From Saprospiraceae bacterium (GTDB taxonomy: Bacteria; Bacteroidota; Bacteroidia; Chitinophagales; Saprospiraceae), in assembly GCA_022841745.1 (NCBI GenBank), contig JALHQW010000073.1, positions 1-36,836 of the forward strand: 36,836 nucleotides of DNA, given 5' to 3'. Below, piece after piece: positions 6,682 to 32,730 of the stretch. How positions within the stretch are numbered: position 1 is the stretch's first letter; the number at the start of each line of letters is the position of its first letter. The notes beneath the pieces were generated by a model that saw only the letters and a list, made by a program, of their open reading frames with translations, did no database searches and had not been told where the DNA came from. A program made the position numbers and the translations under genes.

Positions 6682-6764
6682 AGACGAGGGACGATAGACG
6701 GTGGACGATGGACGACTTACGGGGTTGCCTCCGTCCACCGTCAGTCGTCCATCGTCCATCGTCT
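6682..6764. repeat. Heptamer repeat GACGATG/GACGGTG with inverted partner arm
   Basis: The left arm (6682-6715) is a run of seven-base units of the form GACGATR or GACGGTG. After a short spacer, the right arm (6733-6764) repeats the same word in inverted orientation (CCATCGT type). The same word appears in frame inside trpE and inside the HYR protein gene of this window. It lies between two divergent genes and can fold into a long imperfect hairpin. Confidence 0.85.
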
Positions 6765-6874
6765 TCTTTGGCGGAAAATTACGAAACAGGCCGAAGTTGG
6801 GGCATGTATTCCAACAAAACCTCAACCAAAAGTGCCTATGCCAGTGTTTTTGCTATTTTTACGCCCGTTTTGAA

Positions 6875-6968
6875 TTGGCTGTTAGCTGTTGGCCCTTGGC
6901 CTTTGGCAATAGGCAGCCAACAGCCAAGGGCAAAAAACCAACAGCCAATAGCCAAAGGCCAACAGCCA
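6875..6968. repeat. Heptamer repeat TTGGCTG with inverted partner arm
   Basis: Units of the form TTGGCTG, TTAGCTG, TTGGCCC, TTGGCCT run from 6875 to about 6909. The inverted form (CAGCCAA type) fills about 6913-6968. It ends four bases before the ATG of the ECF sigma factor, so it must form most of that gene's 5' untranslated region or promoter-proximal DNA. A related array lies between trpD and trpG. Together with the array at 6682-6764, this explains the 6651-6972 spacer, where no other gene is seen. Confidence 0.85.
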
Positions 6969-6972
6969 GTAT

Positions 6973-7584
6973 ATGTCCATCCGCTTCTTAAATAAGCAAC
7001 CTGATGTCAGGCAGCTCTCCGACGAGGAACTGGTGAGCAGGTTCGCAGCGACGCAACAGCAGACGTACTTTGAGGAATTGTACCGCCGGTACATGCACCT
7101 GGCTTACGGCGTTTGCCTGAAGCTGATGAAAAACGAGGACGAAAGCCGGGACGTGGTGTCCGATGTGTTCAAAATCCTGTTCACTAAGCTACCGACGGCA
7201 GACGTCAAGTCATTCAAGGCGTACCTCTACACTGTCAGCCGGAACGAGTGCATTGCGAAGCTGCGGCAGAAGAAGTCGGACATGGAGAAGCTGGCGAAGT
7301 ACAACCACCTGGAAAATTCGCCGGACGACTTTATGGAAAACGACGGTTTCGCCGCTCTCTTCAACACCAATCCAAGCATGGAGCAGGAAGTCGAGCGGGC
7401 CGTTGCCCAGTTGGGTGATGAGCAACAAACCTGCGTCCGAATGTTTTTTTACGACGACAAGAGTTACAGAGAAATAGCTACCGAAACTGGATACACAGAA
7501 AAACAGGTGAAAAGTTACCTGCAAAATGGTAAGCGGAACTTGCGGATTCTGCTGGAAAAGGAAATGAGAAAACACACTGCATAA
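6973..7584 (+). CDS. ECF-type RNA polymerase sigma factor
   Basis: The 203-residue product has the extracytoplasmic-function layout. Region 2 spans about 17-90 (FEELYRRYMHLAYGVC, DVVSDVFKILF, and FKAYLYTVSRNECIAKLR). Region 4 spans about 137-190 (ERAVAQLGDEQQTCVRMFFYD, then the helix-turn-helix YREIATETGYTEKQVKSYL). It would direct RNA polymerase to a small regulon in answer to a signal relayed by an anti-sigma factor. The next gene, 26 bases downstream on the same strand, is a zinc-finger membrane protein that fits that partner. The start codon directly follows a heptamer repeat and no Shine-Dalgarno sequence is visible, which is common in this phylum. The regulon is unknown. Confidence 0.93.
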   Translation: MSIRFLNKQPDVRQLSDEELVSRFAATQQQTYFEELYRRYMHLAYGVCLKLMKNEDESRDVVSDVFKILFTKLPTADVKSFKAYLYTVSRNECIAKLRQKKSDMEKLAKYNHLENSPDDFMENDGFAALFNTNPSMEQEVERAVAQLGDEQQTCVRMFFYDDKSYREIATETGYTEKQVKSYLQNGKRNLRILLEKEMRKHTA

Positions 7585-7610
7585 ATTTCCAGATAACTAC
7601 AATTGCTCCA

Positions 7611-8393
7611 ATGGACGGAAATTTACGACAACAGATTTTTAAGCCTACCGCATGTCTCAGCCACGAGGAATTAAGGCAATACCTCAGCGGACACATGTCG
7701 AGAGAAGGCCAAAAGCGGGTGGAGAACCACCTGCTGGATTGCCCGCTATGCTCCGATGCCGTCGAAGGCTGCGAGGAGTCGGGCAACCACCTCACGGATG
7801 ACTTGGAAGACTTTGAAGCATTTAGTAAAAAGCTTTCCATGCCATCCCATACTGCCAAGGTTCGCCAACTGCAACCGGGCGGCTACCTGCGTCAAGCCAT
7901 TGCCGTAGCGGCCATGCTCGTGGTGGGTGCCGTGGCCTATTTCAGCTTCTTCAACAAGTCGCTGGATGGTCCTGCCTTGTACGCCAAGCATTATGTGCCG
8001 TATCAGAACGATGTGCCGTTGGCCATGCGGAACGACACGGCCCCCAGCGTGAACCCAAATTTTGCGCAGGCCATAACGGCCTACTCAGAAGGGGACTTCA
8101 CGCAGGCCAGTAGCATCTTCGAACAGGCATTGCAGCAGCAGCCCAGTCACGAGGCGACGCTGTTCTATGCCGGGCTTTCCAACTTGGAAAAGAACGATTT
8201 GGTGAAAGCGGAAAGCTACCTCGGCCAAGTGGCAAATGGTAGGGGCATCTATGCCAAAAAGGCCAGTTGGTACCTCGTCATGTGCGACCTGAAGGCGGGC
8301 AAGAAAGAAGCCGCTGCCGCCAAATTGGACAAAATCATCCAAGCTGGCGAAGTCATGGCAAATGAAGCAAAGCACTTGCGGGACGATATGTAA
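7611..8393 (+). CDS. Putative anti-sigma factor: zinc-finger, one TM helix, periplasmic TPR region
   Basis: The 260-residue product begins with an anti-sigma-type zinc-binding segment: Cys15/His18 and the HLLDCPLC motif, giving His40, Cys44 and Cys47. Residues about 93-114 (YLRQAIAVAAMLVVGAVAYF) form a single membrane helix, so the N-terminus would be cytoplasmic and the rest periplasmic. Residues about 148-250 hold two or three tetratricopeptide-like helical pairs (AITAYSEGDFTQASSIFEQAL and similar). Its position right after an ECF sigma gene suggests that it holds that sigma factor at the membrane and releases it on an envelope signal. The TPR part could sense a protein partner. The pairing is inferred from context and the zinc motif. 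Confidence 0.8.
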   Translation: MDGNLRQQIFKPTACLSHEELRQYLSGHMSREGQKRVENHLLDCPLCSDAVEGCEESGNHLTDDLEDFEAFSKKLSMPSHTAKVRQLQPGGYLRQAIAVAAMLVVGAVAYFSFFNKSLDGPALYAKHYVPYQNDVPLAMRNDTAPSVNPNFAQAITAYSEGDFTQASSIFEQALQQQPSHEATLFYAGLSNLEKNDLVKAESYLGQVANGRGIYAKKASWYLVMCDLKAGKKEAAAAKLDKIIQAGEVMANEAKHLRDDM

Positions 8394-8406
8394 TTGATTA
8401 TCAATG

Positions 8407-8448
8407 AAAAACAAAAGGGCTGGCGATTTCGCCAGCCCTTTTGTTTTT
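8407..8448. terminator. Bidirectional terminator between convergent genes
   Basis: A perfect inverted repeat of 20 bp (core AAAAGGGCTGGCGA with its complement, loop TT) has A-rich and T-rich flanks on both sides, so it can stop transcription in both directions. It lies between the anti-sigma gene and the convergent helix-hairpin-helix gene and touches the stop codon of the latter. Confidence 0.92.
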
Positions 8449-9431: not shown

Positions 9432-9570
9432 GTATGTCCGAGTTTTTGCGGGCCTGGGGCCACAGGTGTTATGGCGGCAAGGAGAGCAAGGAGGCCGATT
9501 TTGTTTTAGGAAACAAAAATAATTCGGACTAAAATTCCAGTCAAATATTCTTTTGAGGTATAAAACAAAA

Positions 9571-9650
9571 CTGGATACTGGGCAGCCATGTACCCAGTAT
9601 CCAGTATCCAGTATCCCCAAAGGGGGTAAACCAGTATCCAGTATCCAGTT
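9571..9650. repeat. Heptamer repeat CCAGTAT with inverted arm
   Basis: The array begins with the inverted form (CTGGATACTGG), then runs CCAGTAT in tandem in two blocks around a CCCCAAAGGGG palindrome. It abuts the stop codon of the HYR protein gene and could serve as its 3' hairpin. The remaining stretch between this array and the 9431 start shows no gene. Confidence 0.85.
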
Positions 9651-12600
9651 ACTCCACCAAAACCAATTTCCCCGTCGCTACATCCCCAGCGGTTTGCAGC
9701 TTGAAGAAGTAAGTGCCCGCAGATGGTAAATCCGACTTGCTGATTCTAACCTCACTGTACCCCTTGGCGAAGCTGCCCTTCCGCACCATGACCAACCTTC
9801 CGGCGGCATCATGTATGTAAAGGGCGGCTTCTTGAGCCTCGGGTAGCGTGAAACCAATGACGGATGAGGTTTTGAAAGGATTGGGAGTAATGGAGACGGT
9901 TGACGGTTGACGATTGACGGTTGACGGAGCGGAGAAATCAAGGCTCAGGTCGAGCAGTTCCCCGGTTTCGTAGTAGGCTTCGGCCTTGGTGTAGTCGGAA
10001 CCGAGGCGCAGGGCTTGTGATAGCTGCGTTTGTTGCTTCGCAACAAAAACAAGGCTGAAAAGCACGGCGTCTTTGTCCAGACTGGTTGGCTCGTTGTTGT
10101 GCCAAGAGGTGGTCAACACGCCCTCGTCCAAGAGCCGGAAGCCGAAATTGGCTTCGGTCAGTTTGGGCAGTTCGCCCATTTTCACTTCTTGGAAATCCAG
10201 CTGCTCCGTGTCGAAGCGCAGGGTGAACTGGTAGCCAATGATGGCTTGGAAGTTCTCGGCGGTAATGTCCAATTGGTAAGCCTGACCGGGTTGGAGTTCC
10301 TCGTCCTTCATGCTGAACCGGAGCGTCTCGCCGCTGCGCTCCTCGCTTGGGTCGTCGAAGTTGTTGGGTACGGCAGAACCGTTCACGTCGCCGACTTTGA
10401 TGGCCACGAAGTTGACGGCGTTCATGTTGCCGTTCAGGTCGTTGATGCTGTACACCTCAGGGAACACCTCCACGAACGGGTTCGATGGGTTCGGGAAAAC
10501 ATAAGCCGCATCCACGAAACGCCACGACGTGTTGTTGGCGAAGGCGTCCGAGATAGTCAGGATGGCCTTTTGGATTTCCACCAGGTCGTAGGTAGTGATG
10601 CCATTCGAATGGTTGACATCAGCAGCAATTATCTTGTACGGTGAATCAAGGTATTCCATGCCAAGGATGTGCTTGCGAATCAGCACCATGTCGTAAGTGG
10701 AAACGCCGTTCATCAGGTTGGAGTCTTTTTCCGGCGAAACAGTGTAATCACCGCCCATCTGCACCGCAGCAAAATTGAAGGTACCATTTGCGCCCGTCAT
10801 GGCCGATTGCGAAAGCGGGTCGTTGAGGTTCACATGCACGTTCTGAACGTTCTGCCCGCTCTCATTGGTGACGGCCCCAGCAACGCCCGCTACGAGGTTG
10901 CCATTTCCGCCGCCATTGCCGCAGGCATTCATATTGTCCTGCACGACGAGGAAGGTGGTGCAGAAGTCCTGGTTGCCACTCGCATCCGTCACCCACATTT
11001 GGATGAGGATTTGCCCGACGTCATCGCAGTCCACCGTCAGGCCCGTTTCATTGATATTGGCTGAAAATGAGTAAATCAAACTGCCAGGGCAATTGTCGAA
11101 GCTGCCAGCGTTGAAGTCATTGGCCCAAGTGGTCACTGTGCCGTTCTGCATCAGCTCGACAATAAGGCCATTCTTGCAGTACGGCGTAGGCTTTTTATCG
11201 TCCTTCACTTGTATGGTGATAGCGCAGGTACCGGAGTTGCCACAGCCATCAGCGATGACGTAGTTGGCGGTATAGTTGCCGGGGTTCACGTTGGTGAACG
11301 GCCCGTAGCCACTGCCGAAACTGCTGTTCACAGAAACAGTCACGTTCTGGCTGCAGTCTTGGATATTCGTCACCTGCGGCAAGGTGAAGTTGCCCTTGCA
11401 GTTGGCGTCCACGGCCACCACCATATTGCTGGGGCAAGTGAAGGTCGGAGCCGTGTTGTCCGTCACCATGATGATTTGCTGTCCTTCCCACAGGCCGACC
11501 GTGCCACCTGCCACATAGGTACACCAGTTGATGACCTTCCAGGTGCGGATGATCTTGTAGCAAGCTGGGCCTGATACGACGAACACTTGGTCGGTATGGT
11601 TGATGGCCATCATTTCACAGTCACTGGTGATGGCTGGGGCGCCATAAGGAGCGGGCAAGTTGGCTGGCGCAAGGCTGCTTAGGCTGACACAGTTGCCCGG
11701 CACGTTGTAGTTGGGCGGAAAGGTGACGGTCACGGGCGTGTTGTCCACCGAAGTAATGGTCTGGGTACAGGTGCTTGAGTTGTTGTTTCCCAGTGTAGCC
11801 TTCCAGGTTCGAATGATGATGCCCACGTCGCACATGTTCAGGTTGCTGGCATCCGTGTAGGTAATGGTCGGGTTGCCACAAGAGGCCGCTGCTGTGGCTT
11901 GCCCTGTCAAGCTGAGGTTGGTCGGGTCTTGGGTGCAATTCACGGTTACATTCGGCGGGCAAAGAATGGACGGCTGCGAATGGTCGGTCACATGCACCGT
12001 CACCATACAGGTGTTGGTATTGCCACTGGCATCGGTGCCTTGCATTTGTACCTGAATGCCCTGGCCTACATCTTCGCAGCAGAATTTCACATTGGGGCCA
12101 TAAACGGGCTGTGTGCCACAGGCTTGGGTCATGCGGCGCACGGTGAGGTTCACAGGGCTGCAGTTGTCGTAGCTGCCGTTGTTGAAAGTCGTTGGGAAGA
12201 CCACGGCAGTGCCGTTGCTGTTCAGCGTCACCACAGTGTATTCGTTGCAAATCATGGTGGGGGAATCGTCATCCACCACGGTCAGTTTGGAGGTGCAGAA
12301 ATTGGAATTCCCACAGCCGTCTGTCACATTATAAGTGATGGTGTAAACGCCGGGGCTGACGTTGTTCAGTAGGCCACCATTGCCCTGCACCTGCCCAGCA
12401 GTCGAGGAAATACTGACCGTGAAACTAGTCGAGCAGTTGTCGGTAATGCCCACGGGCGGCAACAGCACGTTTGCCTTGCAAACAATGGCCGAGGTCGTGC
12501 CCACTGTCAGGTCGGCGGGGCAGGTGAGCGTTGGTGGCGTCACATCCTTCACAGCGATGATTTGCGTATGGGTTGAAATCTGGCTGTTGCACCAGTTGAC

Positions 12601-13473
12601 CACCGTCCATGTGCGCAGGATTTTATAGCTGTTTTGGCAAATGGGAATCTGTTGGTCGCTGAACGTGACCGCCATGTTGCAATAGCCCGTCCCGTTGGGA
12701 ATTGGGGAGCCGCCGATGCTGGGTGCGCCCGTGTTGGCTGGCGTGGTGTTCGGGTTCACGCAATTGATCACGGGCGCTGCGATGCCGTCACGGTGTGGCG
12801 GCCAAGTGATGTTCGCTGAGGTCGGTTTGGTGATGTTGATGGTCTGAGTACAGGTTTTGAGGTAGCCGCCCAGGTCCACCGCCAGCCAAGTGCGGGTAAT
12901 GATGGCGGAGAAGTTCGTACCTGCACAGCCAAGCACCTGTGTTTGGTCGGTGAAGCTGATGGTGAAATCGGAGCAATCGGTAGCGGTGGCCGTGCCAGTG
13001 ACAGCCGTCGTTGTCGGACTGGTGCAGGGCAAGGTGACATTGGCCGGGCAGGTAATCGTCGGGCCGACCTTGTCCTCCACGTTGATATTGCCCCAACAAG
13101 AGTTGCCAGAGGCCCAGTGCTTTACCTTTACGGTCAGCGTCTGGCCGATGTTGTCGGATGTGACGACCGGGCTGGTGGGGATGGGAAAGCCTGCAAGGTC
13201 CATCACGGTCACCACGTAGGCCGAGGGGCCGTTCGGTGAGCAGCTGTTGGGGTTTTGCAGAATCATGTCGTAGGTGATCGTGCTTTCGCAGGTGGGCGAG
13301 AGCGATACGTTGGTGGAGCCGGAACAAGCCATGCTGCACTGTGCGTTGAGGGTCGAGGTGCTGACCATTATACCTGCAATAAGCAGGAAACTGGCCTTGA
13401 GTAAAACGGACGTTTTGGTTAAAGAACGGTAAAAAGCCCGGTCAATTAAAACGGGTGTAATCGTTTCTTTCAT
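9649..13473 (-). CDS. Giant HYR-repeat surface protein with dockerin-like, cohesin-like and T9SS sorting domains
   Basis: The product is 1274 residues from the ATG at 13473. An upstream in-frame ATG at 13572 is rejected because its 33 extra residues would bury the signal sequence (membrane core LLKASFLLIAGIMVSTST, then NAQC). The bulk (about 60-840) consists of cysteine-rich immunoglobulin-like HYR repeats, recognised by TCPANVTLPC, TCPADLTV, CPPNVTVNCTQD and YNVTDGCGNS motifs. A carboxypeptidase regulatory-like domain follows (about 850-910, VAGAVTNESGQNVQNVHV). Next are two dockerin-like loops (NGVSTYDMVLIRKHILG and NGITTYDLVEIQKAILT, about 915-975), a cohesin-like domain (about 1050-1180) and a T9SS type A domain (SITPNPFKTSSVIGFTLPEA). 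It is probably a cell-surface adhesin or scaffold. Dockerin and cohesin folds in one chain could allow self-assembly, but this is inference. A heptamer repeat is in frame just before the sorting domain. Confidence 0.87.
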   Translation of the reverse strand: MKETITPVLIDRAFYRSLTKTSVLLKASFLLIAGIMVSTSTLNAQCSMACSGSTNVSLSPTCESTITYDMILQNPNSCSPNGPSAYVVTVMDLAGFPIPTSPVVTSDNIGQTLTVKVKHWASGNSCWGNINVEDKVGPTITCPANVTLPCTSPTTTAVTGTATATDCSDFTISFTDQTQVLGCAGTNFSAIITRTWLAVDLGGYLKTCTQTINITKPTSANITWPPHRDGIAAPVINCVNPNTTPANTGAPSIGGSPIPNGTGYCNMAVTFSDQQIPICQNSYKILRTWTVVNWCNSQISTHTQIIAVKDVTPPTLTCPADLTVGTTSAIVCKANVLLPPVGITDNCSTSFTVSISSTAGQVQGNGGLLNNVSPGVYTITYNVTDGCGNSNFCTSKLTVVDDDSPTMICNEYTVVTLNSNGTAVVFPTTFNNGSYDNCSPVNLTVRRMTQACGTQPVYGPNVKFCCEDVGQGIQVQMQGTDASGNTNTCMVTVHVTDHSQPSILCPPNVTVNCTQDPTNLSLTGQATAAASCGNPTITYTDASNLNMCDVGIIIRTWKATLGNNNSSTCTQTITSVDNTPVTVTFPPNYNVPGNCVSLSSLAPANLPAPYGAPAITSDCEMMAINHTDQVFVVSGPACYKIIRTWKVINWCTYVAGGTVGLWEGQQIIMVTDNTAPTFTCPSNMVVAVDANCKGNFTLPQVTNIQDCSQNVTVSVNSSFGSGYGPFTNVNPGNYTANYVIADGCGNSGTCAITIQVKDDKKPTPYCKNGLIVELMQNGTVTTWANDFNAGSFDNCPGSLIYSFSANINETGLTVDCDDVGQILIQMWVTDASGNQDFCTTFLVVQDNMNACGNGGGNGNLVAGVAGAVTNESGQNVQNVHVNLNDPLSQSAMTGANGTFNFAAVQMGGDYTVSPEKDSNLMNGVSTYDMVLIRKHILGMEYLDSPYKIIAADVNHSNGITTYDLVEIQKAILTISDAFANNTSWRFVDAAYVFPNPSNPFVEVFPEVYSINDLNGNMNAVNFVAIKVGDVNGSAVPNNFDDPSEERSGETLRFSMKDEELQPGQAYQLDITAENFQAIIGYQFTLRFDTEQLDFQEVKMGELPKLTEANFGFRLLDEGVLTTSWHNNEPTSLDKDAVLFSLVFVAKQQTQLSQALRLGSDYTKAEAYYETGELLDLSLDFSAPSTVNRQPSTVSITPNPFKTSSVIGFTLPEAQEAALYIHDAAGRLVMVRKGSFAKGYSEVRISKSDLPSAGTYFFKLQTAGDVATGKLVLVE
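9895..9927 (-). repeat. In-frame heptamer repeat (GACGGTT) inside the HYR protein gene
   Basis: Four and a half tandem units of GACGGTT (one GACGATT variant) lie in the linker just before the T9SS sorting domain and encode the peptide STVNRQPSTV. The same word occurs between genes at 6682-6764 and in frame in trpE. The 33-base length keeps the reading frame. Confidence 0.88.
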
Positions 13474-14137
13474 CGGATTACTTAATTTGTTGAATAAATC
13501 GGTTGTAAAAAAATCGGTGTAACTGATGAATGAAGGCGGCGAACCCTGGTGAATTCGCCGCTTCAAATACATGGATTATAATTTGTCAATTTCTTATCGG
13601 ACGCTTCGCTCAACTTTTTGAGAATCAACGCCTTGCGATGGTTTTTTTATTTGGTTAAAAGGCATAAAAATCCCTCCGCCAATGCATGCAGCATGACGAT
13701 TTAAACCTATACTCATGAGCCTCCAAGGCAACGAAGGGTATGCCCGGATTTGTCTATGTTCCAGTAATAATGGGTGGTTCCCGTAGTGTGCAGTTAAATC
13801 AGATATATGTGCATGGCAATGCCATACGCATATTGTCCTTTAAATTGGCTGAATTTTACAAAAGGGTAGATTGGAAAAGAGTTGAACTGCGCTTCAAGAA
13901 GCGTTCAACGGCACAGGGCATGCCCTGAAATTTTTAGGAAGAAACAATTGGAGAAGTAAGTCAAAAACGGAGTGTACGAAGTTTCGGTTAATACTTTTCA
14001 TGGGAAAATCGGTTGTGGATTACAAATACGGTTCGTTCAATTTTGGCAAAGGTAAACGGCTTTGTTGAATTGTCAAATAATTTTGAAAAAAATTAATGTA
14101 TAAGGTAAAACTTAGGGGTAGGCCGGGCTATTTTACC
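13474..14137. other. Gene-free region: probable long 5' leader of the HYR protein gene
   Basis: No convincing gene is seen in these 664 bases. A 62-codon reading frame on the + strand at 13740-13928 lacks family features and a credible start. The region holds a near-consensus promoter reading leftwards at 14047-14077, which would give the HYR gene a leader of about 565 nucleotides. Inside the leader are an interrupted stem-loop (13881-13909, arms GTTGAAC/GTTCAAC with inner GCTTC/GAAGC) and a perfect 14-bp palindrome, CAGGGCATGCCCTG, at 13914-13927. Whether these are regulatory is unknown. Confidence 0.5.
14047..14077 (-). promoter_or_regulatory. Near-consensus Bacteroidota promoter
   Basis: On the minus strand TTTG (14077-14074) is followed by exactly 19 bases and TACCTTTG (14054-14047), matching the Bacteroidota -33/-7 consensus TTTG-N19-TAnnTTTG. 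It points at the HYR protein gene and lies just after the gpsA stop codon. The predicted start of transcription is near 14041. Confidence 0.65.
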
Positions 14138-15193: not shown

Positions 15194-15202
15194 TATGGAA
15201 AA

Positions 15203-15272
15203 GTCATTGGTCATTCGGGTCATTGGTCAATGGTTCGGAGTTAATGACAAATGATTTTAATGACCAATGACT
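15203..15272. repeat. Heptamer-type repeat TCATTGG with inverted arm
   Basis: Tandem TCATTGG and TCATTCG words at about 15203-15232 are followed by the inverted form (TTAATGAC, AATGACCAATGAC) up to 15272. The array lies about ten bases upstream of the gpsA start and so makes up its proximal 5' untranslated region. The architecture is the same as in the other heptamer arrays here, with a different word. Confidence 0.8.
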
Positions 15273-15329
15273 ATTAAAATCGGCCAAAACTACGCCTTTT
15301 TCAAAAACGCAAGCAATTGTGGCCGCAAA

Positions 15330-17478: not shown

Positions 17479-18016
17479 GTTTCTTTGATTTGATAGGATT
17501 AGCAGATTTATTCCCACTTATTTTGGCAACCAGTTCATTTCGGCTGAGCGCAGGGCTATGTTTGAAACGGGTGTAACGCAATGTCTCCAGCTCATTTTTG
17601 ATTTGCACACTGAGCCAGAGTGTGGCAGAGATGGTGAAAATTTGCTCTAGTTTTAAAGCAAACTCAGGATTGATGCGACGGTTGCCTTTGAGCATTGCGC
17701 TTAGGTTCGATTCTTCAATTCCGATATATATAGCAAATTCCTTTTTCTTGACCCCAAGCGCTCCGATTGCTTCATTGAGAAGTGAAGGCATGTCAACGGG
17801 TAACTTTGATTCCGCATCGCGGAGATAAGCCCCCATCCTAAAGCGGATTTCCTTCAGTTTAGTGTCAGTACGTTCCTCACGACTCCTGTTTTCAGAATGC
17901 TGTTTGATGACCGATAAAAAGGCTTGCCAATCGGGGCTTTTTGTGTCCACGAAACCCGTACCGGCACCTTGAATGCCGCCTTCATTCACGAATTTTGAAT
18001 TTTTCATTTTTTTCAT
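17447..18016 (-). CDS. HigA/Xre-like helix-turn-helix protein (putative antitoxin)
   Basis: The product is 189 residues (a second possible start, MKNSKFV, lies three codons later). Residues about 75-150 form a HigA-like Xre helix-turn-helix: LNEAIGALGVKKKEFAIYIG, then ESNLSAMLKGNRRINPEFAL, then TISATLWLSVQIKNELETL. The EFAxxIGIxxSxLSxMLxGxRxI pattern is the DNA-contact unit. The first 70 residues are charged and may contact a partner. The tail is basic (NPIKSKKHEPTRK) and overlaps the start of trpA. The gene follows the GNAT-like gene with one base between them, and an AT-rich palindrome stands at the promoter of the pair. This is the layout of a higBA-type toxin-antitoxin unit, with the regulator second. 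DNA binding is well supported; the antitoxin role is inferred. Confidence 0.8.
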   Translation of the reverse strand: MKKMKNSKFVNEGGIQGAGTGFVDTKSPDWQAFLSVIKQHSENRSREERTDTKLKEIRFRMGAYLRDAESKLPVDMPSLLNEAIGALGVKKKEFAIYIGIEESNLSAMLKGNRRINPEFALKLEQIFTISATLWLSVQIKNELETLRYTRFKHSPALSRNELVAKISGNKSANPIKSKKHEPTRKAAGQ

Positions 18017-19787: not shown

Positions 19788-20463
19788 GCTTGAATGTTTT
19801 TATCAGGTCAAAATCCTTTAATCCGGGTTCGATTTCAAAGCGGGAGTTGATGTCGAGAGCGACGAGACCCCTGCCCCCTAAAGGGGGACCCACGGATGCA
19901 CTATTATCGGGACTCAGCCATTTTTGAAGTTCCGAAACCTGAAAATCTGTGGGTTCCCCTTTAGGGGTCAGGGGTGGCCCGATTCCACCACTCAGCACAA
20001 ACGGCGTCACTCCCTCGTACTTCTCCAACAGCCCCCAATCGAACGCCACCCCATTGCCGCCCCGATTTTTCCCCTTTGTGTCAAAAAGGAATTTGTCGCA
20101 GCAACCAGCGTATGCCGTCGTTTTTCCAAAATCAAAATCCTCATCCACGCCGAAGGCTTTCCATATTTCCAATCCGCTCATTTTCAAGGTGTAGCAAATT
20201 GCTGGCGATTCGTCGCCATGCAACTGAACGACCTGCAAACCAAGCGCCTCGGCAGTGCTTATCACCACTTCCACCGCCTCGTTCACGAACACGCCGACCT
20301 TTTTCGTCGGGCTGGGCAGTTCCCGAACCCAAGCCAAATCGGTCACCTCGCCCACGAAGCGGGGGCTTTTTTTGTAAAAAATGAACCCGATATAGTCCGG
20401 CTCCAAGGTCAGGAGTTGGTGGACGTTGGCGGGGTGTTTTAGGCCGCAGATTTTTAGTTGCAT
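19771..20463 (-). CDS. trpF: Phosphoribosylanthranilate isomerase with in-frame repeat insertion
   Basis: The 230-residue product carries the TrpF landmarks: [14 protein letters not shown] with the catalytic Cys, [41 protein letters not shown], and the phosphate-binding [17 protein letters not shown] with the catalytic Asp. It isomerises phosphoribosylanthranilate to the CdRP intermediate. The usual length is about 205 residues. The excess sits at residues about 163-199, between SGGIGP and LVALDINS, where a palindromic element of about 109 bases is read through (PLTPKGEP to [11 protein letters not shown]). This is the loop between two strands of the TIM barrel, so the enzyme can plausibly tolerate it. 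The trpC stop codon is about 110 bases upstream. Confidence 0.95.
19867..19975 (-). repeat. Palindromic protein-coding element, copy 1 (in trpF)
   Basis: Two 27-base arms (19867-19893 and 19949-19975) are reverse complements with two mismatches. Each contains the inner palindrome CCCCTAAAGGGG, and a spacer of 55 bases separates them. The element is read in frame as PLTPKGEP, spacer with SEL, then ASVGPPLG. A second copy in the same frame lies in trpD. Confidence 0.92.
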
Positions 20464-21377: not shown

Positions 21378-21459
21378 TTTTGTCATTGCCGAAGGCAACC
21401 TGCAACGTCACGAGGGACATCACGCATGACGTTGCGGTTTGCCTTCGGCAATGACAAAA
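21378..21459. repeat. Long inverted repeat filling the trpD-trpC spacer
   Basis: Arms of 33 bases (21378-21410 and 21427-21459) are reverse complements with two mismatches. Each holds an inner TTGCCGAAGGCAA palindrome, and a 16-base loop separates them. It lies between the trpD stop and trpC start and would form a very stable hairpin in the polycistronic mRNA. Confidence 0.92.
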
Positions 21460-21464: not shown

Positions 21465-22580
21465 TCATTGCAACTCCACCAACCGCCGTAGCGCTCGCAG
21501 CGCCCGCCCGCTCACGATGCTTTCATTCGCTTGCGCAATACAGGCCTCCAGCGATTGTTCCGGCGAAAGGCATTGCAGCGCCAGTGCCGAATTGGCCACC
21601 ACGACCCGCTTCTGCGCCACCGTTCCCTTGTTTTCCAAAACATTCAAGAAAATGGCCTTAGCCTCCTCCACCGTGTCCCCACCGAAAAGCTCAGCCTCGG
21701 TCACTTCCCCACCGAAGTCGGCAGGGGTAAACGTCGCCTCCCCCCGGCTGCTGACGGACTTGGCAAGGGCGGTGAGGGAAAGCTCATCGTAACCGCCGAG
21801 GGTGTGGATGACGTTGAAGCCCCGACTACAGCCCCTGACCCCTAAAGGGGAACCCACGGACGCAAACGCATCGGAACCTCCAAGACTTGGCAAATTAAGC
21901 TCCGAACCTCCCAGATTAGGTTCCCCTTTAGGGGTCAGGGGTTGCGTCACGGGTTGCCCCTGCAACAAATACCCATAAATCCGCTGCAATTCCAAACTGA
22001 ACACCCCAGTCAGTTGGCAATCCGGCTGGGCGGGGTTCACCAGCGGGCCGAGCATATTGAAGAAGGTCTTGATGCCGAGCGCCTTCCGCACGGGGCCGAC
22101 GTTCTTCAGCGCTGGGTGGAACATGGGGGCGTGGAGAAAGCAGATGCCTGCCTCGTCGAGTTCGTGGCGGAGGGCGTCGCCGTCGTTCTTGAAACGGTAG
22201 CCGAGGGATTCCAGCAAGTTGGAGGAGCCGCAGACGGAGGAGACGCCGTAGTTGCCGTGCTTGACCACCCGGCCACCTGCCCCGGCCACCACGAAGCTGG
22301 CAAGGGTCGAGATATTGAAGGTGTTCTTGCCGTCACCGCCCGTGCCGCAAAGGTCAATGGTGGGGTGGCCGCTCACGTCCAGCCGGATGCAGAGGTCGAG
22401 CAGGGCCTGGCGGAAGCCGTCGAGCTCTTCCACGCTGATGCTGCGCATGAGATAGACCGTGAGGAAGGCGGCCATCTGTGCTTCGTTCACTTCGCCACGG
22501 GTGATTTCCGTAAGGGTCTCGTAGGCTTCCTCACGGGTGAGGCGCTGGTGCTCGAAGAGCTTGTTGAGAATCTTCTTCAT
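21465..22580 (-). CDS. trpD: Anthranilate phosphoribosyltransferase with in-frame repeat insertion
   Basis: The 371-residue product has the TrpD signatures DLCGTGGDGKNTFNISTLAS (PRPP-binding glycine loop), VVKHGNYGVSSVCGSSNLLE, FLHAPMFHPALKNVGPVRKA and FNMLGPLVNPA. It transfers phosphoribosyl from PRPP to anthranilate. The usual length is about 330-345 residues. The excess is a palindromic element of about 112 bases at residues about 213-250, read as PLTPKGEP to [11 protein letters not shown], just before the conserved FNVIHTLGGYDELSLT segment. Active-site motifs lie outside it. The call is firm; the effect of the insertion on activity is unknown. Confidence 0.95.
   Translation of the reverse strand: MKKILNKLFEHQRLTREEAYETLTEITRGEVNEAQMAAFLTVYLMRSISVEELDGFRQALLDLCIRLDVSGHPTIDLCGTGGDGKNTFNISTLASFVVAGAGGRVVKHGNYGVSSVCGSSNLLESLGYRFKNDGDALRHELDEAGICFLHAPMFHPALKNVGPVRKALGIKTFFNMLGPLVNPAQPDCQLTGVFSLELQRIYGYLLQGQPVTQPLTPKGEPNLGGSELNLPSLGGSDAFASVGSPLGVRGCSRGFNVIHTLGGYDELSLTALAKSVSSRGEATFTPADFGGEVTEAELFGGDTVEEAKAIFLNVLENKGTVAQKRVVVANSALALQCLSPEQSLEACIAQANESIVSGRALRALRRLVELQ
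21831..21942 (-). repeat. Palindromic protein-coding element, copy 2 (in trpD)
   Basis: The left arm (21831-21857) and right arm (21919-21942) share 23 bases of perfect inverted complementarity, including the inner palindrome CCCCTAAAGGGG. The spacer shares words with the copy in trpF (CATCGGAAC- and TCCGAACCT-like). It is translated in the same frame as copy 1, giving PLTPKGEP and ASVGSPLG. It is three bases longer than copy 1. Confidence 0.92.
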
Positions 22581-22650
22581 GTTGTTAGCTTTTGGCTGTT
22601 AGCTTTTGGCCATGTCAGCAAATTGCTAACGGCCAATGGCCAACTGCTAG
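22581..22650. repeat. Heptamer repeat TTGGCTG-type with inverted arm between trpG and trpD
   Basis: TTAGCTTTTGGCTGTTAGC is followed by the inverted words GCTAACGGCCAATGGCC. It begins directly upstream of the trpD start and overlaps the stop codon of trpG, filling the spacer. The word family is the same as at 6875-6968. Confidence 0.8.
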
Positions 22651-23670: not shown

Positions 23671-25104
23671 TCAAATCCCACTTTCGGCCCGTTTTACAGC
23701 CCTTCGCAATGCGCCGATTTTGTGAAAAACCTCCGCCAACTCTTTTTCTTCCACCGAATGCTTCACAATCCCCGCTCCAGCCTGGTAATGCAGCGTATTG
23801 TCTTTGCTCAAAAAACTACGAATGAGGATGGCGTGGTTCGTCTCGCCGCTGAAGGTGAAAAAGCCGACACAACCACCATAAAAACTGCGCTGGTTCGGTT
23901 CGATTTCGTCAATGAGTTGCATGGCCCGGTGCTTGGGGGCGCCCGACAAAGTGCCCGCCGGGAAGGTCTCCGCCAGCAATTTAACGGTTGAAACTTCTGC
24001 TGGCAAATCGCCCGACACCTCCGACACCAGGTGAATGACATGGCTGTAAAACTGCACCTCCCGGTAAGTCTCCACCTTCACGTTTCGGCAAAGGCGGTTG
24101 AGGTCGTTCCTCGCCAAATCCACCAGCATGACGTGCTCGGCATTCTCCTTCGGGTCGGCGGCGAGGGCTTCTGCGCCAAGGCGGTCAGCTTGGTCGTCGC
24201 CCGTGCGGGGGAAGGTGCCTGCGATGGGGTTGATAAACGCTTGACGGTGGACGCTTGACGGTGGACGGTGGACGGTTTTCAAGCGGACCTGCGCTTCTGG
24301 CGATGAGCCGAAGATTTTATACCCTCCATAATCGAAATAAAACAAGTATGGAGAGGGGTTCACGCTGCGCAAAGCCCGATAAACATTGAAGTCGTCGCCT
24401 TGGAACTGCTGCGAAAACTGGCGGGCCAGCACGATTTGGAACACGTCGCCACGCTGGCAGTGGTGCTTGCCTTGAGTTACCATTTTCATGTACGCCTCGT
24501 CCGTCATGTTCGTCGTTTCCTCGCCGACGGTTCGGAACGAGAAGGTCGGCACGGGAGCCACTTGGAGCAGGTTTTCCAGTTCGGCGAGCTGGCTCGGTTC
24601 GCCAGGCAGATTGTTTTCCAGCACGGTCATTTGCTGGTTGAAGTGGTTGATGGCCACGATGAAGCGGGGCAGTTGGTAGCGGATTTGCGGGATGTCCCGC
24701 TCAGGGTTCAATGGGCTTTTCAACTTGATTTTTTCAAAAAACTGCACCGCTTCGTAGGTGCAGTAGCCAAAAAATCCGTTGAATTTTTTGGCAATGGGAA
24801 CCTCCGTTTGGAGGTCAAACTTTTTGAAGAAAGCCTCCAACTTAGCCACTGCCTCCTGCGGTTTTTCAATCGTAAAATTAGCCGCAGGCTGCCCCGGCAA
24901 TTGTTCCGTAACTCGCTGATGGTCAACCATGAACTCTGCCATCGGCTCCAGGCAGAGAAACGAAATGCTGTTCTCGTTACCATGGTAGTCCGAACTTTCG
25001 AGGAGCAGGGCGCCGGGGTAGCGGTCCCGCAGCCGCAGGTACAGGCTGACAGGGGTGACGGTGTCGGCGAGGAGAACCTTGGTATGTGAAGTGATATGGT
25101 GCAT
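23671..25104 (-). CDS. trpE: Anthranilate synthase component I with in-frame repeat insertion
   Basis: The product is 477 residues from the ATG at 25104 (MHHITSHTKVLLADTVTPVS). A longer frame from 25158 is rejected because its extra 18 residues have no family character. The feedback-site motif LLLESSDYHGNENSISFLCL (Leu-Glu-Ser) is present, as are the catalytic-domain signatures FQIVLARQFSQ, AFINPIAGTFPRTGDD, DLARNDLNRLCR, FPAGTLSGAPKHRAM and YGGCVGFFTFSGE. It converts chorismate, with ammonia from TrpG, to anthranilate, the first step of the pathway. Residues about 277-289 (VHRPPSSVHRQ) are encoded by a heptamer repeat inserted just before AFINPIAGT. The upstream leader carries an attenuator. 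Confidence 0.97.
   Translation of the reverse strand: MHHITSHTKVLLADTVTPVSLYLRLRDRYPGALLLESSDYHGNENSISFLCLEPMAEFMVDHQRVTEQLPGQPAANFTIEKPQEAVAKLEAFFKKFDLQTEVPIAKKFNGFFGYCTYEAVQFFEKIKLKSPLNPERDIPQIRYQLPRFIVAINHFNQQMTVLENNLPGEPSQLAELENLLQVAPVPTFSFRTVGEETTNMTDEAYMKMVTQGKHHCQRGDVFQIVLARQFSQQFQGDDFNVYRALRSVNPSPYLFYFDYGGYKIFGSSPEAQVRLKTVHRPPSSVHRQAFINPIAGTFPRTGDDQADRLGAEALAADPKENAEHVMLVDLARNDLNRLCRNVKVETYREVQFYSHVIHLVSEVSGDLPAEVSTVKLLAETFPAGTLSGAPKHRAMQLIDEIEPNQRSFYGGCVGFFTFSGETNHAILIRSFLSKDNTLHYQAGAGIVKHSVEEKELAEVFHKIGALRRAVKRAESGI
24238..24276 (-). repeat. In-frame heptamer repeat (GACGGTG) inside trpE
   Basis: Units GACGGTG and GACGCTT occur in tandem and are read in frame as VHRPPSSVHRQ, between VRLK and AFINPIAGT. 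The same word occurs at 6682-6764 and in the HYR gene at 9895-9927. The insertion lies in the chorismate-binding domain, close to conserved residues. Confidence 0.9.
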
Positions 25105-25417: not shown

Positions 25418-27649
25418 TTATTCCAAAACCACCTTGCCAGTCTCCGCATCCAGCGTCAAAGTCCCAGCGCCCACAGGTATTTTTACCAAAATCTCCTTTC
25501 CTTTTTTTAGTTTTATTTTTTGGTCACCCCCTGTCTTGGTGTGAAAGACCAGCAATCTATTGCCAGCATAGACCACGCCTTCATCTGTGTAAAAATGGAC
25601 ACCAGATTCGGCCAGTAGGTAGCGCCACCAATTGGCATCAATAGGTGGGATGCCGAGGAACCAAGCCGTGTGCCCTGCTATTTTCTTCTTCGCAAAAACG
25701 GTACTGCCATCATGTTCATAACTGGCAATGGTCGTGGCAGAAGGGTCGCTTACCGACCACAAAGGCGAGAGCTTGCCCCAAGCAGTTTGTCTTGGTAAAC
25801 TGCCCACGGCCCGTACGGCTGGAACAGTATCGCATTGCGCAGCAACCAATTGTAAACCAGCGACTTGTGAAGAATTTGAAACACCCAACTGCTCCGGTGC
25901 ATATACCCAAAACAGGTGCCGCCCGTCTCGCTCCCAGAATTGCCGAATGGCCGCCAAGTCCTTTTCTTCCAGCAGCCAAGTGTTCGCAAAAATGACCGCC
26001 CGGTAAGGAGACGGGTCGAGCAGCGAGAGGTCGTTGAGGTGGACGGCATCCCACACTACTCCGGCATAGCTCAGTGCCAAGGGCAACCAGTCCACCACCT
26101 GTGAGCTGATGGGGCAGGAGTCCTGTTTGGTGCTTTTAAGGTGGTAAAAAACCTCGGTGTCATAGACCAGTAGCACGTCGGCAGCGGTCTGCCACGGGCG
26201 GTGCAGAAGCGAGTCGGCCAACGTTTTCAGGCGTTTTATGCTCCGCAAATAATCGGGGTGGTCCCAGTAGCCGATGGTGCCGGATTGGATGTCGTGCTCG
26301 TTGCCCCGGTGCAGGTTCATGCCGCTGGGGCCGAAGTCGTAGAACCAGAGGCCGGCGCCCTTAGTGAGCGGCGAGAGCACGTTCCGCTCGATGGCAGCGA
26401 TGTTTTCCTGCACGTTGCGGCGGTAGTTTTGCGAGTTGTCCTTGCCATTCAGCACGGGAAAGGTGCGGCGGGGCTGCTGGTCGTACTCGTCGAGCCAGAG
26501 CTTGCCGTGCAGGGTGATGCTACGTACGAGGCTGCGGCTGCGGTAAGGCTCGCCGGGGTCATAGCCATCGTCGGGATAATAGACCTGTGGGCCGCTCAGG
26601 TAGTCAATCCAGGGGGAGGCCAGCACCCGCTGAAGTTCCAAGTGGCCGCCCGCCGCCTGCCGGTTGAACATGGAGAAGAAATAGCCATAAAAGGCCCCGG
26701 TCAAAATCGGGCGGTTCCATTTTTCCTTTACCGTTTTGCAGAAAAAGAGGATGTTTTCGGCGACGAGTTCGTGCTGGCAGCGGTAGTAATCAAGAATGCG
26801 GATTTCGGATTGCGGATTGCGGAAGAGGCTGCCATCTTGCACTTTTCGTTCATCGGGGGTGGGGGCGGTGGCCTTGTCAAACGAGGCAGTTGGGGCATTC
26901 CAAGTTTTGCAAAGCGCCTCATTTGAGACATATTTTTCCTTGAGCCAACTTTGAAAATGCTGCTTCATCGGCTCGCTGAAATCGGCCTCGTGCTCGATAA
27001 ATCCCCACTGGTGCCACTCGCCGTAAACACCTGCCACCACATGGATGCCGATGAGCCGTTTGCCTTCTTTTGTCTTCGAAAACTCCTTGCAAAAACGAGC
27101 GAGCATTGCGCCAGCATCCTCCCGCCATTTTTGCGAAGCAAAGCTGACCCGCACGGGCAGTCCGGCGTCGTCCTGCACCAGGCGGCTGAGGCGCAGCGGC
27201 TCGAAGGGCTGGGCGGGGGTGCCGGCTTCGTAGGCCACCAGTTCGTCGGGATGCTGGGAGAGCCACCAAGCTGGCGGGTTCAGGTGCAGGCGGAAGACGA
27301 CTGCCGCATCGGGGCAGACGGCCAGTGTGCCTTGGATTTGCCGCTTCGCAATGTCGAGGCTGAACTGGCCGGGTGCCTGTGAAATATGTTCCCAAAAAAT
27401 ATCAAGCTGAAACAGCCGGATGCCCGCTTCGCAAAAATTGCGGAGGTTGTGCTGCGGCACCTCCTCCCACGACCAGCGGCCACCGGGCACGTCGGTCAGG
27501 GCGTAGAACATGGGCGATTCGGGCTTGCCATTGATGAAAATGGTGGGCTTGCCCTGGTAAGGTCGAAGCTCGGTGCTGAGGGACTGGGCAGTAGCCCATT
27601 GCGGAGCGAAAAACAAAAAGACCAGTAACGGTAGGTTCAGTTTTTTCAT
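25418..27649 (-). CDS. Secreted GH-A clan glycoside hydrolase (GH42 beta-galactosidase-like)
   Basis: The 743-residue product has a signal peptide (MKKLNLPLLVFLFFAPQWATAQ). Residues about 35-480 form a TIM-barrel of the GH42/GH35-like type. The candidate acid/base is Glu211 in VVAGVYGEWHQWG and the candidate nucleophile is Glu388 in GKLWLDEYDQQP. Residues about 505-640 (ADVLLVYDTEVFYHL, YAGVVWDAVHLNDL, YRAVIFANTWLL) match the GATase-like trimerisation domain of GH42. A small beta domain ends the chain. It probably cleaves beta-galactosides or a related glycan in the periplasm or outside the cell; the substrate is not determined. Residues about 277-284 (RNPQSEIR) come from an in-frame heptamer repeat. 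It is divergent from the SusD-like gene, which suggests a shared carbohydrate locus. Confidence 0.82.
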   Translation of the reverse strand: MKKLNLPLLVFLFFAPQWATAQSLSTELRPYQGKPTIFINGKPESPMFYALTDVPGGRWSWEEVPQHNLRNFCEAGIRLFQLDIFWEHISQAPGQFSLDIAKRQIQGTLAVCPDAAVVFRLHLNPPAWWLSQHPDELVAYEAGTPAQPFEPLRLSRLVQDDAGLPVRVSFASQKWREDAGAMLARFCKEFSKTKEGKRLIGIHVVAGVYGEWHQWGFIEHEADFSEPMKQHFQSWLKEKYVSNEALCKTWNAPTASFDKATAPTPDERKVQDGSLFRNPQSEIRILDYYRCQHELVAENILFFCKTVKEKWNRPILTGAFYGYFFSMFNRQAAGGHLELQRVLASPWIDYLSGPQVYYPDDGYDPGEPYRSRSLVRSITLHGKLWLDEYDQQPRRTFPVLNGKDNSQNYRRNVQENIAAIERNVLSPLTKGAGLWFYDFGPSGMNLHRGNEHDIQSGTIGYWDHPDYLRSIKRLKTLADSLLHRPWQTAADVLLVYDTEVFYHLKSTKQDSCPISSQVVDWLPLALSYAGVVWDAVHLNDLSLLDPSPYRAVIFANTWLLEEKDLAAIRQFWERDGRHLFWVYAPEQLGVSNSSQVAGLQLVAAQCDTVPAVRAVGSLPRQTAWGKLSPLWSVSDPSATTIASYEHDGSTVFAKKKIAGHTAWFLGIPPIDANWWRYLLAESGVHFYTDEGVVYAGNRLLVFHTKTGGDQKIKLKKGKEILVKIPVGAGTLTLDAETGKVVLE
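26798..26823 (-). repeat. In-frame heptamer repeat (GCGGATT) in the glycosidase gene
   Basis: GCGGATT, TCGGATT, GCGGATT, GCGGA run in tandem and are read as FRNPQSEIR in the coding frame. It lies in a loop region between barrel segments (PTPDERKVQDGSL and ILDYYRCQHEL). Confidence 0.85.
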
Positions 27650-29246: not shown

Positions 29247-29250
29247 TTGT

Positions 29251-29397
29251 TTTATTTGATTTAAGAATTCAGATAGACGATTTAAGATTTTTGATTTATT
29301 GGGGCAATCAGATTTTAAAACATCAGTAATTTAAGATGTTTTCGGTGTTTAAATCGTATATCTTAATTCGTATATCTTATATCTTAAATCAAAACAA
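29251..29397. repeat. AT-rich heptamer-type repeat (TATCTTA/ATTTAAGA) with inverted arms
   Basis: The words GATTTAAGA, GATTTAAGATTTTTGATTT (about 29251-29296) and TTTAAGATG are answered by inverted TATCTTAATTCGTATATCTT and TATCTTAAATC words (about 29355-29391). The array fills the spacer between the SusD-like gene and the phosphatase gene and ends just before the latter's start. Confidence 0.75.
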
Positions 29398-29410
29398 ATT
29401 GAGCCATTTA

Positions 29411-31261: not shown

Positions 31262-31416
31262 CAATGCGGCAGCAAAGCCCCCAACATTTTTTATAACGAT
31301 AATTATTAGATAGAATCATAACTTCGGCGCATAATTTCTCAAAACAAAAAACTCTTCACCCAGCCATTTGCCGAAGGCAACCAAACCAAAGGCAACTGGC
31401 CAAACTTCCTTTCAAA

Positions 31417-32643
31417 ATGAAAAAAATCTTACTCGCATTTTCGCTGCTGACGATGGGCACTTTGCTCGTTGCACAGACGGTGACGCCTTCGGCTTCAACC
31501 TACCAATTCGGCGATGATATTGTGATATCATTCACCGGCTCCACAGCTCCGTTGGATTGGGTGGGCATCTACAACGAGGGCGAAACCCCCGACCCAAACA
31601 ATGGCGGTGTGGCTTCTATCACCTGGTTCTACATTAATGGCACACAGGACAACTCCAACACAACCGTGATATCGAACGGCACGTTGACCTTCACGAATGA
31701 TTTGCCTGATGGTAACTACATCGTTCATCTGCTTTGCTGCGACGGCTATACGGTGATGGCTTCCAACAGTTTTACGGTGGAAGGCGGGGGGCCAGCCCCA
31801 TCGGAATTGTACCAGGATAACTTCCCCTTCGTAGGTGGCACGGTCACTTTCAACTATGCGGAAGGGCCGGGCAATTCCACAGATTGGATTGGCATTTACA
31901 AGAAGGGCGAATCCCCAGACCCGAACAATGGCGGTGTGGCATCTATCATGTTCCAATACACCACCGGTACGGAAGGTGAATTGACCTTCGACCTTAACGT
32001 GCCGGAAATACCCGCTGGCGAGTACGATGCACATTTTTTCTGCTGTGACGCTTACGATATTCTTGCCAGCACATCATTCAGGGTTTACGAACCAACCCAG
32101 CCCGGTATTTCGCCCGGCAGCCTCTTGATGGAAGATATCCCTATTACCTTCGATTTTTCTGGGGGCACTGGTTTCCTTTCCGATTGGGTAGGCATATACC
32201 CAGCAGGTGAAGTACCCGATGGCGACCCCGCTTCCATTAGTTTCTTATATGTGCCTGGCCCTGATGGACAAGTGACTTTTGATGCCACAACAGACCTAAC
32301 GCCGGGTACTATGTACGATGCCCATCTTTTCTGCTGCGATGGGTATGATATTATCGCCAGCTACGAAAACTGGACGGTGGCTGTCTTCAACTCCACCAAC
32401 GAAGTCAAAGACAATCCCATCCTTTTCAACGCAAGCACCCCAGGGCAGGGCAATGTGTGGTTGACTTTCAACGAGCCTGTGCAGGGCGAGGTTTGCCTTT
32501 TCAATACGATGGGGCAAAACATGCAAAGCCGCAATGTAGATGGCCAAGCCAGCATGAACATGACCAATTTGCAGCCTGGGTTCTACGCTGTGCTGTTCCA
32601 GGGCAAGCAAGGTGTCCAGACAGCGAAAGTCGTTGTGAAATAG
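31417..32643 (+). CDS. Secreted protein of three tandem SKICH-like repeats plus T9SS-type sorting domain
   Basis: The 408-residue product has a signal peptide (MKKILLAFSLLTMGTLLVAQ). It has three repeats, at about 24-123, 128-224 and 231-322. Each has the pattern D-W-[VI]-G-I-Y-x2-G-E-x-P-D-x near the start and Y-x-[VA]-H-[LF]-[LF]-C-C-D-x-Y-x-[VI]-[MLI]-A-S near the end. The same domain occurs once at the N-terminus of the upstream phosphatase. The DWVGI and later Gly-Tyr/Ala-Ser pattern resembles eukaryotic SKICH domains, a beta-sandwich fold linked to membrane and phosphoinositide proteins; this is inference. The C-terminal 80 residues (NPILFNASTPGQGNVWLTF) are close to the phosphatase C-terminus, so the two genes share both domain types. 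It may bind the substrate of the phosphatase. No catalytic motif is seen. Confidence 0.8.
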   Translation: MKKILLAFSLLTMGTLLVAQTVTPSASTYQFGDDIVISFTGSTAPLDWVGIYNEGETPDPNNGGVASITWFYINGTQDNSNTTVISNGTLTFTNDLPDGNYIVHLLCCDGYTVMASNSFTVEGGGPAPSELYQDNFPFVGGTVTFNYAEGPGNSTDWIGIYKKGESPDPNNGGVASIMFQYTTGTEGELTFDLNVPEIPAGEYDAHFFCCDAYDILASTSFRVYEPTQPGISPGSLLMEDIPITFDFSGGTGFLSDWVGIYPAGEVPDGDPASISFLYVPGPDGQVTFDATTDLTPGTMYDAHLFCCDGYDIIASYENWTVAVFNSTNEVKDNPILFNASTPGQGNVWLTFNEPVQGEVCLFNTMGQNMQSRNVDGQASMNMTNLQPGFYAVLFQGKQGVQTAKVVVK

Positions 32644-32650
32644 GGAGCTT

Positions 32651-32730
32651 CGAGTATCAAGTAACGAGTGACGAGTAGGGGGCAGTAAGCATCGAATTCC
32701 CCCCACTTGCAACTCGCAACTTGATACTCA
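32651..32730. repeat. Heptamer repeat CGAGTAA/ACGAGTG with inverted arm
   Basis: CGAGTATCAAGTAACGAGTG on the left is answered by ACTTGCAACTCGCAACTTG on the right, giving arms of about 31 bases that are imperfect reverse complements. It lies in the spacer before the SusC-like gene. A promoter for that gene would have to lie in or right after it. Confidence 0.82.

Follow-up and report, generated by a model that had tools for sequence, protein, structure and literature searches.

Tandem arrays of short words, most often 7 bp long, lie in spacers and genes of a 36,836-nucleotide stretch of DNA from a Saprospiraceae bacterium (contig JALHQW010000073.1 of GenBank assembly GCA_022841745.1; hereafter, the window). 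In the source assembly (8.43 Mb in 178 contigs), the window is contig C73, and similar arrays are dispersed over the genome. Many are paired with an inverted array of the same word to form a hairpin, wherein the 5′ arm is nearly always the G-rich one, and the word that occupies a given slot can differ between sister species. We give about an even chance to the explanation that the arrays are of the simple-sequence-repeat kind and have multiplied in one genus of Saprospirales, growing by slippage and being copied from other arrays.

Period-7 arrays are in excess

Arrays were detected as self-identity at a distance p, with dinucleotide shuffles as the control. With a period of 7, the window yields 12 segments (score at least 9) against a mean of 0.1 per shuffle (10 shuffles). 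Periods 2 through 6 yield 0, 0, 0, 0, and 1 segments, period 8 yields three, and period 9 yields four. The 12 segments span eight of the ten places at which a first-pass annotation of the window had listed arrays, and one segment at 17990 that is A+T-rich was left out. An array is present at every one of the ten places, but those at 15203 and 22583 are irregular.

The same scan was applied to a sample of the genome composed of the window and 40 stretches of other contigs (836,836 bases, or about a tenth of the genome), and arrays were found over the sampled contigs beyond the window. This sample holds 127 arrays of period 7 and 57 of period 8, whereas a single shuffle holds none of either; periods 5, 6, 9, and 10 are represented by 1, 12, 24, and 5 arrays, and there is an excess at multiples of 7 and 8 too. 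The period-7 excess that the annotation had described is thus real, and period 8 and, to a lesser extent, period 9 are raised as well. Scaling from the sample gives about 1,280 period-7 arrays in the genome. In the genome-wide count that the annotation had set as a refuting test, the 14-mer GCGGATTGCGGATT is present in 101 copies (overlaps counted), and its reversed control is present in none.

For comparison, we used 13 congeners (G001 to G013, which make 14 genus genomes with the genome of the window), other genomes of the family, and about 80 Bacteroidota trpE loci, each species being represented by one genome. Sampled stretches from 11 of the 13 congeners carry 131 period-7 arrays per Mb. 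Forty other family genomes gave 22 such arrays in 0.97 Mb, and 80 Bacteroidota trpE loci gave 43 in 1.44 Mb, a count that includes three runs of N and the congener locus L009. Period 7 is the commonest of periods 5 to 9 among these trpE loci, wherein the words are mostly different. This kind of array is widespread, and the genus of the window genome is very rich in them.

The words form a related stock with species dialects

The part of the genome sample outside the window contributes 116 arrays built on 42 words. Two arrays of this genome share their word with a probability of 0.041, compared with 0.0009 for uniform words, and seven of nine window words recur in the rest of the sample. The words had been described as unrelated. 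Their sequences do vary, but 41 of the 42 have a neighbor that differs by one substitution, whereas letter-shuffled words give a mean of 24.4 and a maximum of 31 (60 shuffles).

Eleven words are common to the samples from this genome and its congeners, where the null has a mean of 1.5 and a maximum of 6 (within-word shuffle; orthology of the stretches unchecked), and none is shared with 79 phylum loci, for which the null mean is 1.15. The distribution of GCGGATTGCGGATT is equally uneven within the genus: beyond the 101 copies noted above, there are 95 in G010, 57 in G001, and 34 in G009, while among the 13 congeners searched there are none in G002, G003, G011, G012, and G013. The reversed control is absent from all 14 genus genomes. 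Each species has its own dialect of related words.

Little else travels with the words. When the flanks of 78 array clusters in 437 kb were compared with the arrays masked, 10 rows of similarity were returned in all; four reflect neighboring clusters with overlapping windows, three belong to one 8-mer family, and three are others (84, 29, and 27 bp). For nearly all sampled arrays, then, what moves is the array itself and no larger element. Few of the 78 clusters have the shared sequence outside the array that a miniature inverted-repeat transposable element (MITE) would show, the exception being one 8-mer family. Octamer arrays of GGTTTTCG share a MITE-like core of about 64 bp at L112:11198-11360, L118:18042-18214, and L127:152-502, and two of these three loci have similar ends (CAATGGTTCG).

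Orthologous slots can hold different words

Arrays differ strongly between species of the genus, and sister species do not always have the same word in an orthologous slot. The best case is a loop of TrpE (residues 295–308). Among 116 loci, the corresponding slot measures 75 nt in 107, 81 nt in one, and 90 nt without an array in four (of which L009 and L093 come from the same genome). Only in the window and three congeners is it 102 to 111 nt long with an array, and no array is present in the slot of the other 112 loci. The window has the word ACCGTCC, G005 and G013 have ACCAATC/T, and G007 has GGCAGTT; every slot length keeps the reading frame.

A second example is in the gene for a secreted protein, where the stretch at 9840–9980 is equal in length in this genome, G007, G006, and G005 and 3 nt longer in G013; the word is GACGGTT in this genome and AATGGTN in G006. 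In the GH42-like gene, the same slot in G006 holds a TTCGGAT array and is 12 nt longer. Noncoding slots behave likewise. The spacer at 6875 carries a word related to TTGGCTG in G007 and a TTAGACT-type hairpin at the equal place in G006 (read by eye), and both arms stay complementary though the word differs between species. The trpD–trpG hairpin is shared with G013, its loop being nearly unchanged and its arms altered.

Array hairpins share a polarity

Among 89 inverted repeats that overlap arrays in the samples from this genome and the genus, the 5′ arm is G-rich in 83, C-rich in three, and neither in three. The 178 other hairpins divide into 105 G-first, 59 C-first, and 14 ties (Fisher p 1e-9 against the array hairpins). 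G makes up 31% of the 5′ arm and C 9%. A rule defined on the 5′ arm reads the same from either strand, so two C-poor strands face each other.

When counted per array, which takes both arms of a hairpin, G-first exceeds C-first by 66 to 1 for period 7 in this genome (76 unpaired), by 31 to 2 for period 8 (29 unpaired), and by 12 to 0 for period 9 (25 unpaired), while periods 5, 6, 10, 11, and 12 together include one paired array of 54. The congeners gave 14 to 0 with one tie, 12 to 2, and 3 to 1 with one tie for periods 7, 8, and 9; the phylum loci gave 10 to 1 for period 7 and 4 to 1 for period 8; and the family stretches gave 4 to 0 and 3 to 0. Several observations speak against a clean rule. 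A mild G-first bias is present in the control hairpins too (105:59:14), and the paired period-6 arrays of the congeners are C-first in two of two cases, those of period 10 being G-first in four of four. Also in this direction, 5 of 19 period-11 arrays in the phylum loci (L010 to L088) have C-first pairing, unlike periods 7 and 8.

G-quadruplexes are in general an unlikely cause of the polarity. It persists where neither GG nor CC occurs in the arms of a hairpin (G-first 10, C-first 1, ties 2; n = 13), and the common words CGTGATT, AAGATAT, and ACTGGAT contain no GGG, so they do not supply the G tracts of a quadruplex. Taken by itself, the G-rich strand folds slightly more stably (mean −1.11 versus −0.66 kcal/mol; more stable in 68 and less stable in 14 of 126 arrays), which lends weak support to fold-back. 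A conserved GGGG loop motif was assessed by eye, with no statistic, and proved inconsistent.

The two arms share a word, and their unit order is not demonstrably shared. In 55 pairs whose arrays were detected separately and compared with a best-of-shifts null, the mean z is −0.1 and one pair has p ≤ 0.1, although the test has low power on homogeneous arrays. Mirrored arms, as inverted duplication would leave, are thus not upheld once register bias is removed. Unmirrored order is the expectation if the arms are renewed separately.

Placement, pairing, and orientation

Open reading frames (ORFs), called by a greedy rule, cover 88% of bases. Of the 127 period-7 arrays, 29 are deep inside ORFs of at least 600 nt and 98 are not. 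Pairing was scored for 195 arrays of periods 7 and 8 (score at least 10) together with their neighbors: 100 are single and 95 are paired. The annotation had given every intergenic array an inverted partner and every genic array a single orientation. Both statements are accurate for the window, where all seven intergenic places (intergenic status varies with the choice of start codon) are paired and all three genic arrays are single, but in the 837-kb sample a partner is present for only 81 of 154 intergenic arrays (73 have none) and for 14 of 41 arrays in ORFs (27 are single). Array hairpins are found between co-directional (53), convergent (12), and divergent (10) genes, as well as in ORFs (9).

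The three genic arrays of the window have their G-rich strand antisense. Single arrays in ORFs that could be scored are likewise C-rich in the sense strand in 24 of 26 cases in this genome and in 14 of 21 in the congeners. For words that are free of stop codons on both strands, paired arrays included, the C:G ratio is 17:6 in this genome and 5:8 in the congeners, and the orientation bias in genes can therefore be put down at least partly, and probably largely, to stop codons in the C-poor words. Single arrays between co-directional genes are G-rich in the sense strand in 21 cases and C-rich in 19 (11 and 7 in the congeners). Avoidance of Rho loading as the cause of the polarity predicts G-rich sense strands among such arrays and is not borne out by these counts.

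It is possible, though improbable, that the hairpins are kept for a role in RNA as terminators, mRNA stabilizers, or regulators, with arrays being a cheap way to make long stems. The strongly intergenic placement is consistent with such a role, as are the arms of the 6875 spacer that remain complementary despite their different words, and a C-poor arm with a G-poor partner would avoid self-structure. However, 73 of the 154 intergenic arrays have no partner to form a stem, single arrays in co-directional spacers have no strand preference, and hairpins also occur in divergent spacers and within the trp operon. Furthermore, the mismatches of the 53 co-directional array hairpins show no significant lean toward G-U wobble pairs in the sense transcript (49 wobble, 41 reverse, p 0.46), but the control hairpins show none either (65:51, p 0.23), which makes this a weak test.

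A proposed origin for the arrays

The architecture and word stock that the arrays share support one generating process, as the annotation had proposed, over seven independent elements. It had named either a REP-like system or replication-based copying as this process. We prefer the latter, whereas a repetitive extragenic palindromic (REP) system is unsupported for the reasons given below. In the process we envision, slippage would grow and homogenize each array, and new arrays and replacements would arise when word units are copied from other arrays of the same genome, probably through template switching or short gene conversion. Copying internal to the genome would create a species dialect and would allow one slot to change its word. 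Where coding permits, the word would often be established in another array nearby, in inverted orientation, with the C-poor strands nearly always facing. We infer this copying route, as we do the absence of a dedicated enzyme. The arrays are most likely neutral.

Four points weigh against slippage and copying as the full account. No copying event was caught in the act, the genomes compared being one per species. Slippage and copying predict neither the 83:3 polarity nor a unit of 7 to 9 bp. The word of the secreted-protein gene differs at unchanged length, which would need balanced events. Finally, an initial test of unit order gave mirrored arms (mean z 1.61, n = 64), albeit with the register chosen by complementarity.

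Alternatively, each array could have arisen by independent slippage on local sequence, wherein the footprint of the polymerase would set the length at 7 bp (a proposal of Mrazek 2007, cited by PMC4679880 and PMC4692102) and a sequence preference would make some words common. The prevalence of period 7 among the 80 Bacteroidota trpE loci, with words that mostly differ, is what this explanation would lead one to expect. We nevertheless regard it as doubtful, since words are shared exactly within the genus sample and not at all with the 79 phylum loci, and since neither species dialects nor polarity would follow from it.

We consider it quite unlikely that C-poor words of 7 to 9 bp from a heritable genomic stock are written onto both inward 3′ ends of a site by a process independent of sequence, which would create polarized hairpins and could later overwrite the word in place. 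If so, the Xanthomonas and Nostoc repeats discussed below would share a word-writing process with those of Saprospirales, and the polarity would mark an undescribed form of bacterial copying linked to DNA ends or forks.

REP elements are intergenic hairpins of fixed, conserved sequence that are present in many copies, flank the RAYT gene of their family, have a GTAG-like tetranucleotide alongside, and are not known to contain tandem heptamers. The array hairpins are also intergenic and numerous, but many different sequences serve as the tandem words of their arms, and their loops vary. Spread of hairpin units by a REP-associated tyrosine transposase (RAYT), which the annotation had raised as a candidate, or by another transposase is very unlikely. 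A search of the genome did return nine matches to PF01797 (Y1-transposase), among which RAYT and IS200/IS605 proteins are not told apart, and 12 of the 14 genus genomes are positive. Seven of the eight Y1 loci examined have hairpins, but those nearest the gene are other sequences and never a heptamer array, and the eight loci (26 kb) contain one period-7 array at a strict threshold where about four are expected from the genome average. Heptamer hairpins do lie about 0.7 kb (L004) and 1.4 kb (L002) from a Y1 match, and the 8-mer family with its shared core of about 64 bp is MITE-like, but nearly all array clusters lack shared flanks and most arrays in ORFs (27 of 41) have no hairpin. Similarly, family genomes with Y1 carry 20 arrays in 638 kb and those without it carry two in 302 kb, yet period-7 density is uncorrelated with Y1 count in 35 family genomes (rho 0.13, p 0.47), and G009 (78% complete) has no Y1 match but 34 copies of GCGGATTGCGGATT.

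Also very unlikely is a process akin to the healing of chromosome ends, wherein C-poor repeats copied from a single template would lengthen the two 3′ ends at a break or gap before these are joined. Such a process would account for convergent C-poor strands, a shared word, unit orders that are independent between the arms, and a middle without repeats, but no enzyme was identified (Ku matches in none of the 14 genus genomes; reverse-transcriptase RVT_1 matches in seven of them and without pattern), and single arrays match paired ones in number.

Relation to known heptamer repeats

The short tandemly repeated repetitive (STRR) sequences of cyanobacteria and the heptanucleotide long simple sequence repeats (LSSRs) of bacteria (Mrazek 2007, cited by PMC4679880 and PMC4692102) are the nearest known counterparts of the arrays, which like them are tandem repeats of a 7-bp unit in excess of chance and are dispersed over the genome. 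As far as these citing texts describe them, the likeness extends to a favored unit of 7 bp, short arrays, and several words per genome; three Calothrix heptamers, for instance, are cited in PMC4692102. The arrays described here differ in having dozens of related words, about half of them in polarized hairpins, and slot words that differ between sister species. The excess of heptamers in bacteria was noted in 2007 (as cited in PMC4692102), and in the papers covered here its cause is a matter of hypothesis.

Closer parallels exist for single features. GGGAATC repeats of Xanthomonas form 70 and 75 convergent site pairs in two species (Rehm 2015, PMC4692102); they share the 7-bp unit and convergent pairing and, in our reading of the account, the same polarity. 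As described there, they comprise one word family that forms G-quadruplexes, whereas the arrays of this genus use many words and keep their polarity even without GG or CC. In the P6b region of the Nostoc trnL intron, a stem of 7-nt repeats conforms to TDNGATT or NNTGAGT, and one word is inferred to have taken the place of the other throughout the region (Kaasalainen 2015, PMC4476775). This resembles the heptamer stems and differing slot words seen here, except that the Nostoc case is one RNA locus and the present slots include spacers and protein genes. With regard to these motifs, the word TACGATT of this genome fits TDNGATT (Class I) and CGAGTTT is one letter off NNTGAGT, matches that may be coincidental.

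TAACTGA repeats occur in Beggiatoaceae, Cyanobacteria, and Bacteroidetes, with 169 sets in the main genome of that study (MacGregor 2015, PMC4679880), and are absent from equivalent spacers of some relatives. They too are direct heptamer repeats and some are in Bacteroidetes, but the report presents one word, which in the main genome is mostly just upstream of start codons and includes one indirect repeat. Within the open-licence PubMed Central literature, the available text of these three sources (PMC4679880, PMC4692102, and PMC4476775) describes only one- or two-word cases, none with a multi-word vocabulary of common polarity or with word turnover in a protein gene. Many words at once expose rules that single-word cases hide, namely a near-strict polarity and slot words that differ even in an enzyme gene, and with these features the origin of period 7 could be put to the test in a relative that grows in culture.

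Arrays of the window

The window contains a trp operon, gpsA, a subtilase gene, and SusD-, PhoD-, and GH42-like genes. Its protein matches include SusD-like families and a type IX sorting domain, and Rfam returned no match in the window. The divergent spacer between the subtilase gene and a sigma-70 factor gene holds two hairpins found by the scan, each with a G-rich 5′ arm. The first (6683..6764) is formed by GACGATG/GACGGTG arrays and, read by eye, recurs in G007 with variant units but is absent from G005 and G006, while G013 has a different hairpin. The second (6874..6968) uses the word TTGGCTG. Also from the scan, ACTGGAT/CCAGTAT arrays form a hairpin between two co-directional genes (9570..9649), with a related array in G007, and CGAGTAA-type units form one between two plus-strand genes (32649..32732).

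Other hairpins are less regular. Irregular GTCATTG arrays in the spacer between gpsA and a major facilitator superfamily gene (15199..15275, from the sequence) include a joint of odd length and 14% indels, and by eye the hairpin is degenerate in G007 and absent from G005, G006, and G013. The trpD–trpG spacer has an imperfect hairpin of TTAGCTT/TTGGCTG units (22583..22648, read by eye), wherein the array consists of two copies of a 14-bp unit. Between the SusD-like and PhoD-like genes, a degenerate hairpin (29250..29398, from the sequence) runs from GATTTAAGA to TCTTAAATC; only its 3′ arm (29350–29390) passes the period-7 scan, and similar ends are found at L111:5481-5618 and L124:3460-3601.

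Single arrays read on the plus strand were detected by the scan within three minus-strand genes: GACGGTT, without an inverted arm, in the secreted-protein gene at 9649–13572 (9895..9927); GACGGTG in trpE (24237..24276); and TGCGGAT in the GH42-like gene at 25418–27649 (26797..26823).

Other palindromes in the genome

A palindromic element of 106 to 123 bp with arms of CCCCTGACCCCTAAAGGGGAACC lies in frame within trpD (21826–21948) and trpF (19867–19975) and has 68 BLAST matches in the genome. The trpD copy is absent from five aligned relatives, G006 having a short C-rich palindrome there, while the trpF copy is shared with G013. Among 12 loci of the element, four, one of them trpF, are within an open frame that encodes PLTPKGEP...SPLGVRG-like peptides, seven are not, and one is unscorable. 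The element may resemble the Rickettsia palindromic elements. A dispersed GAGAGGAGGGGTTATCAAACCCC-type palindrome is present at L115:8145-8205, L119:13645-13712, L120:9244-9333, L121:8983-9046, and L127:8572-8659 as well as in L004 and L005, and a palindrome that starts with TTTGTCATTGCCGAAGGCAA recurs in the trpC/trpD spacer of the window (21378–21459), at L119:1007-1141, and at L005:2749-2867.

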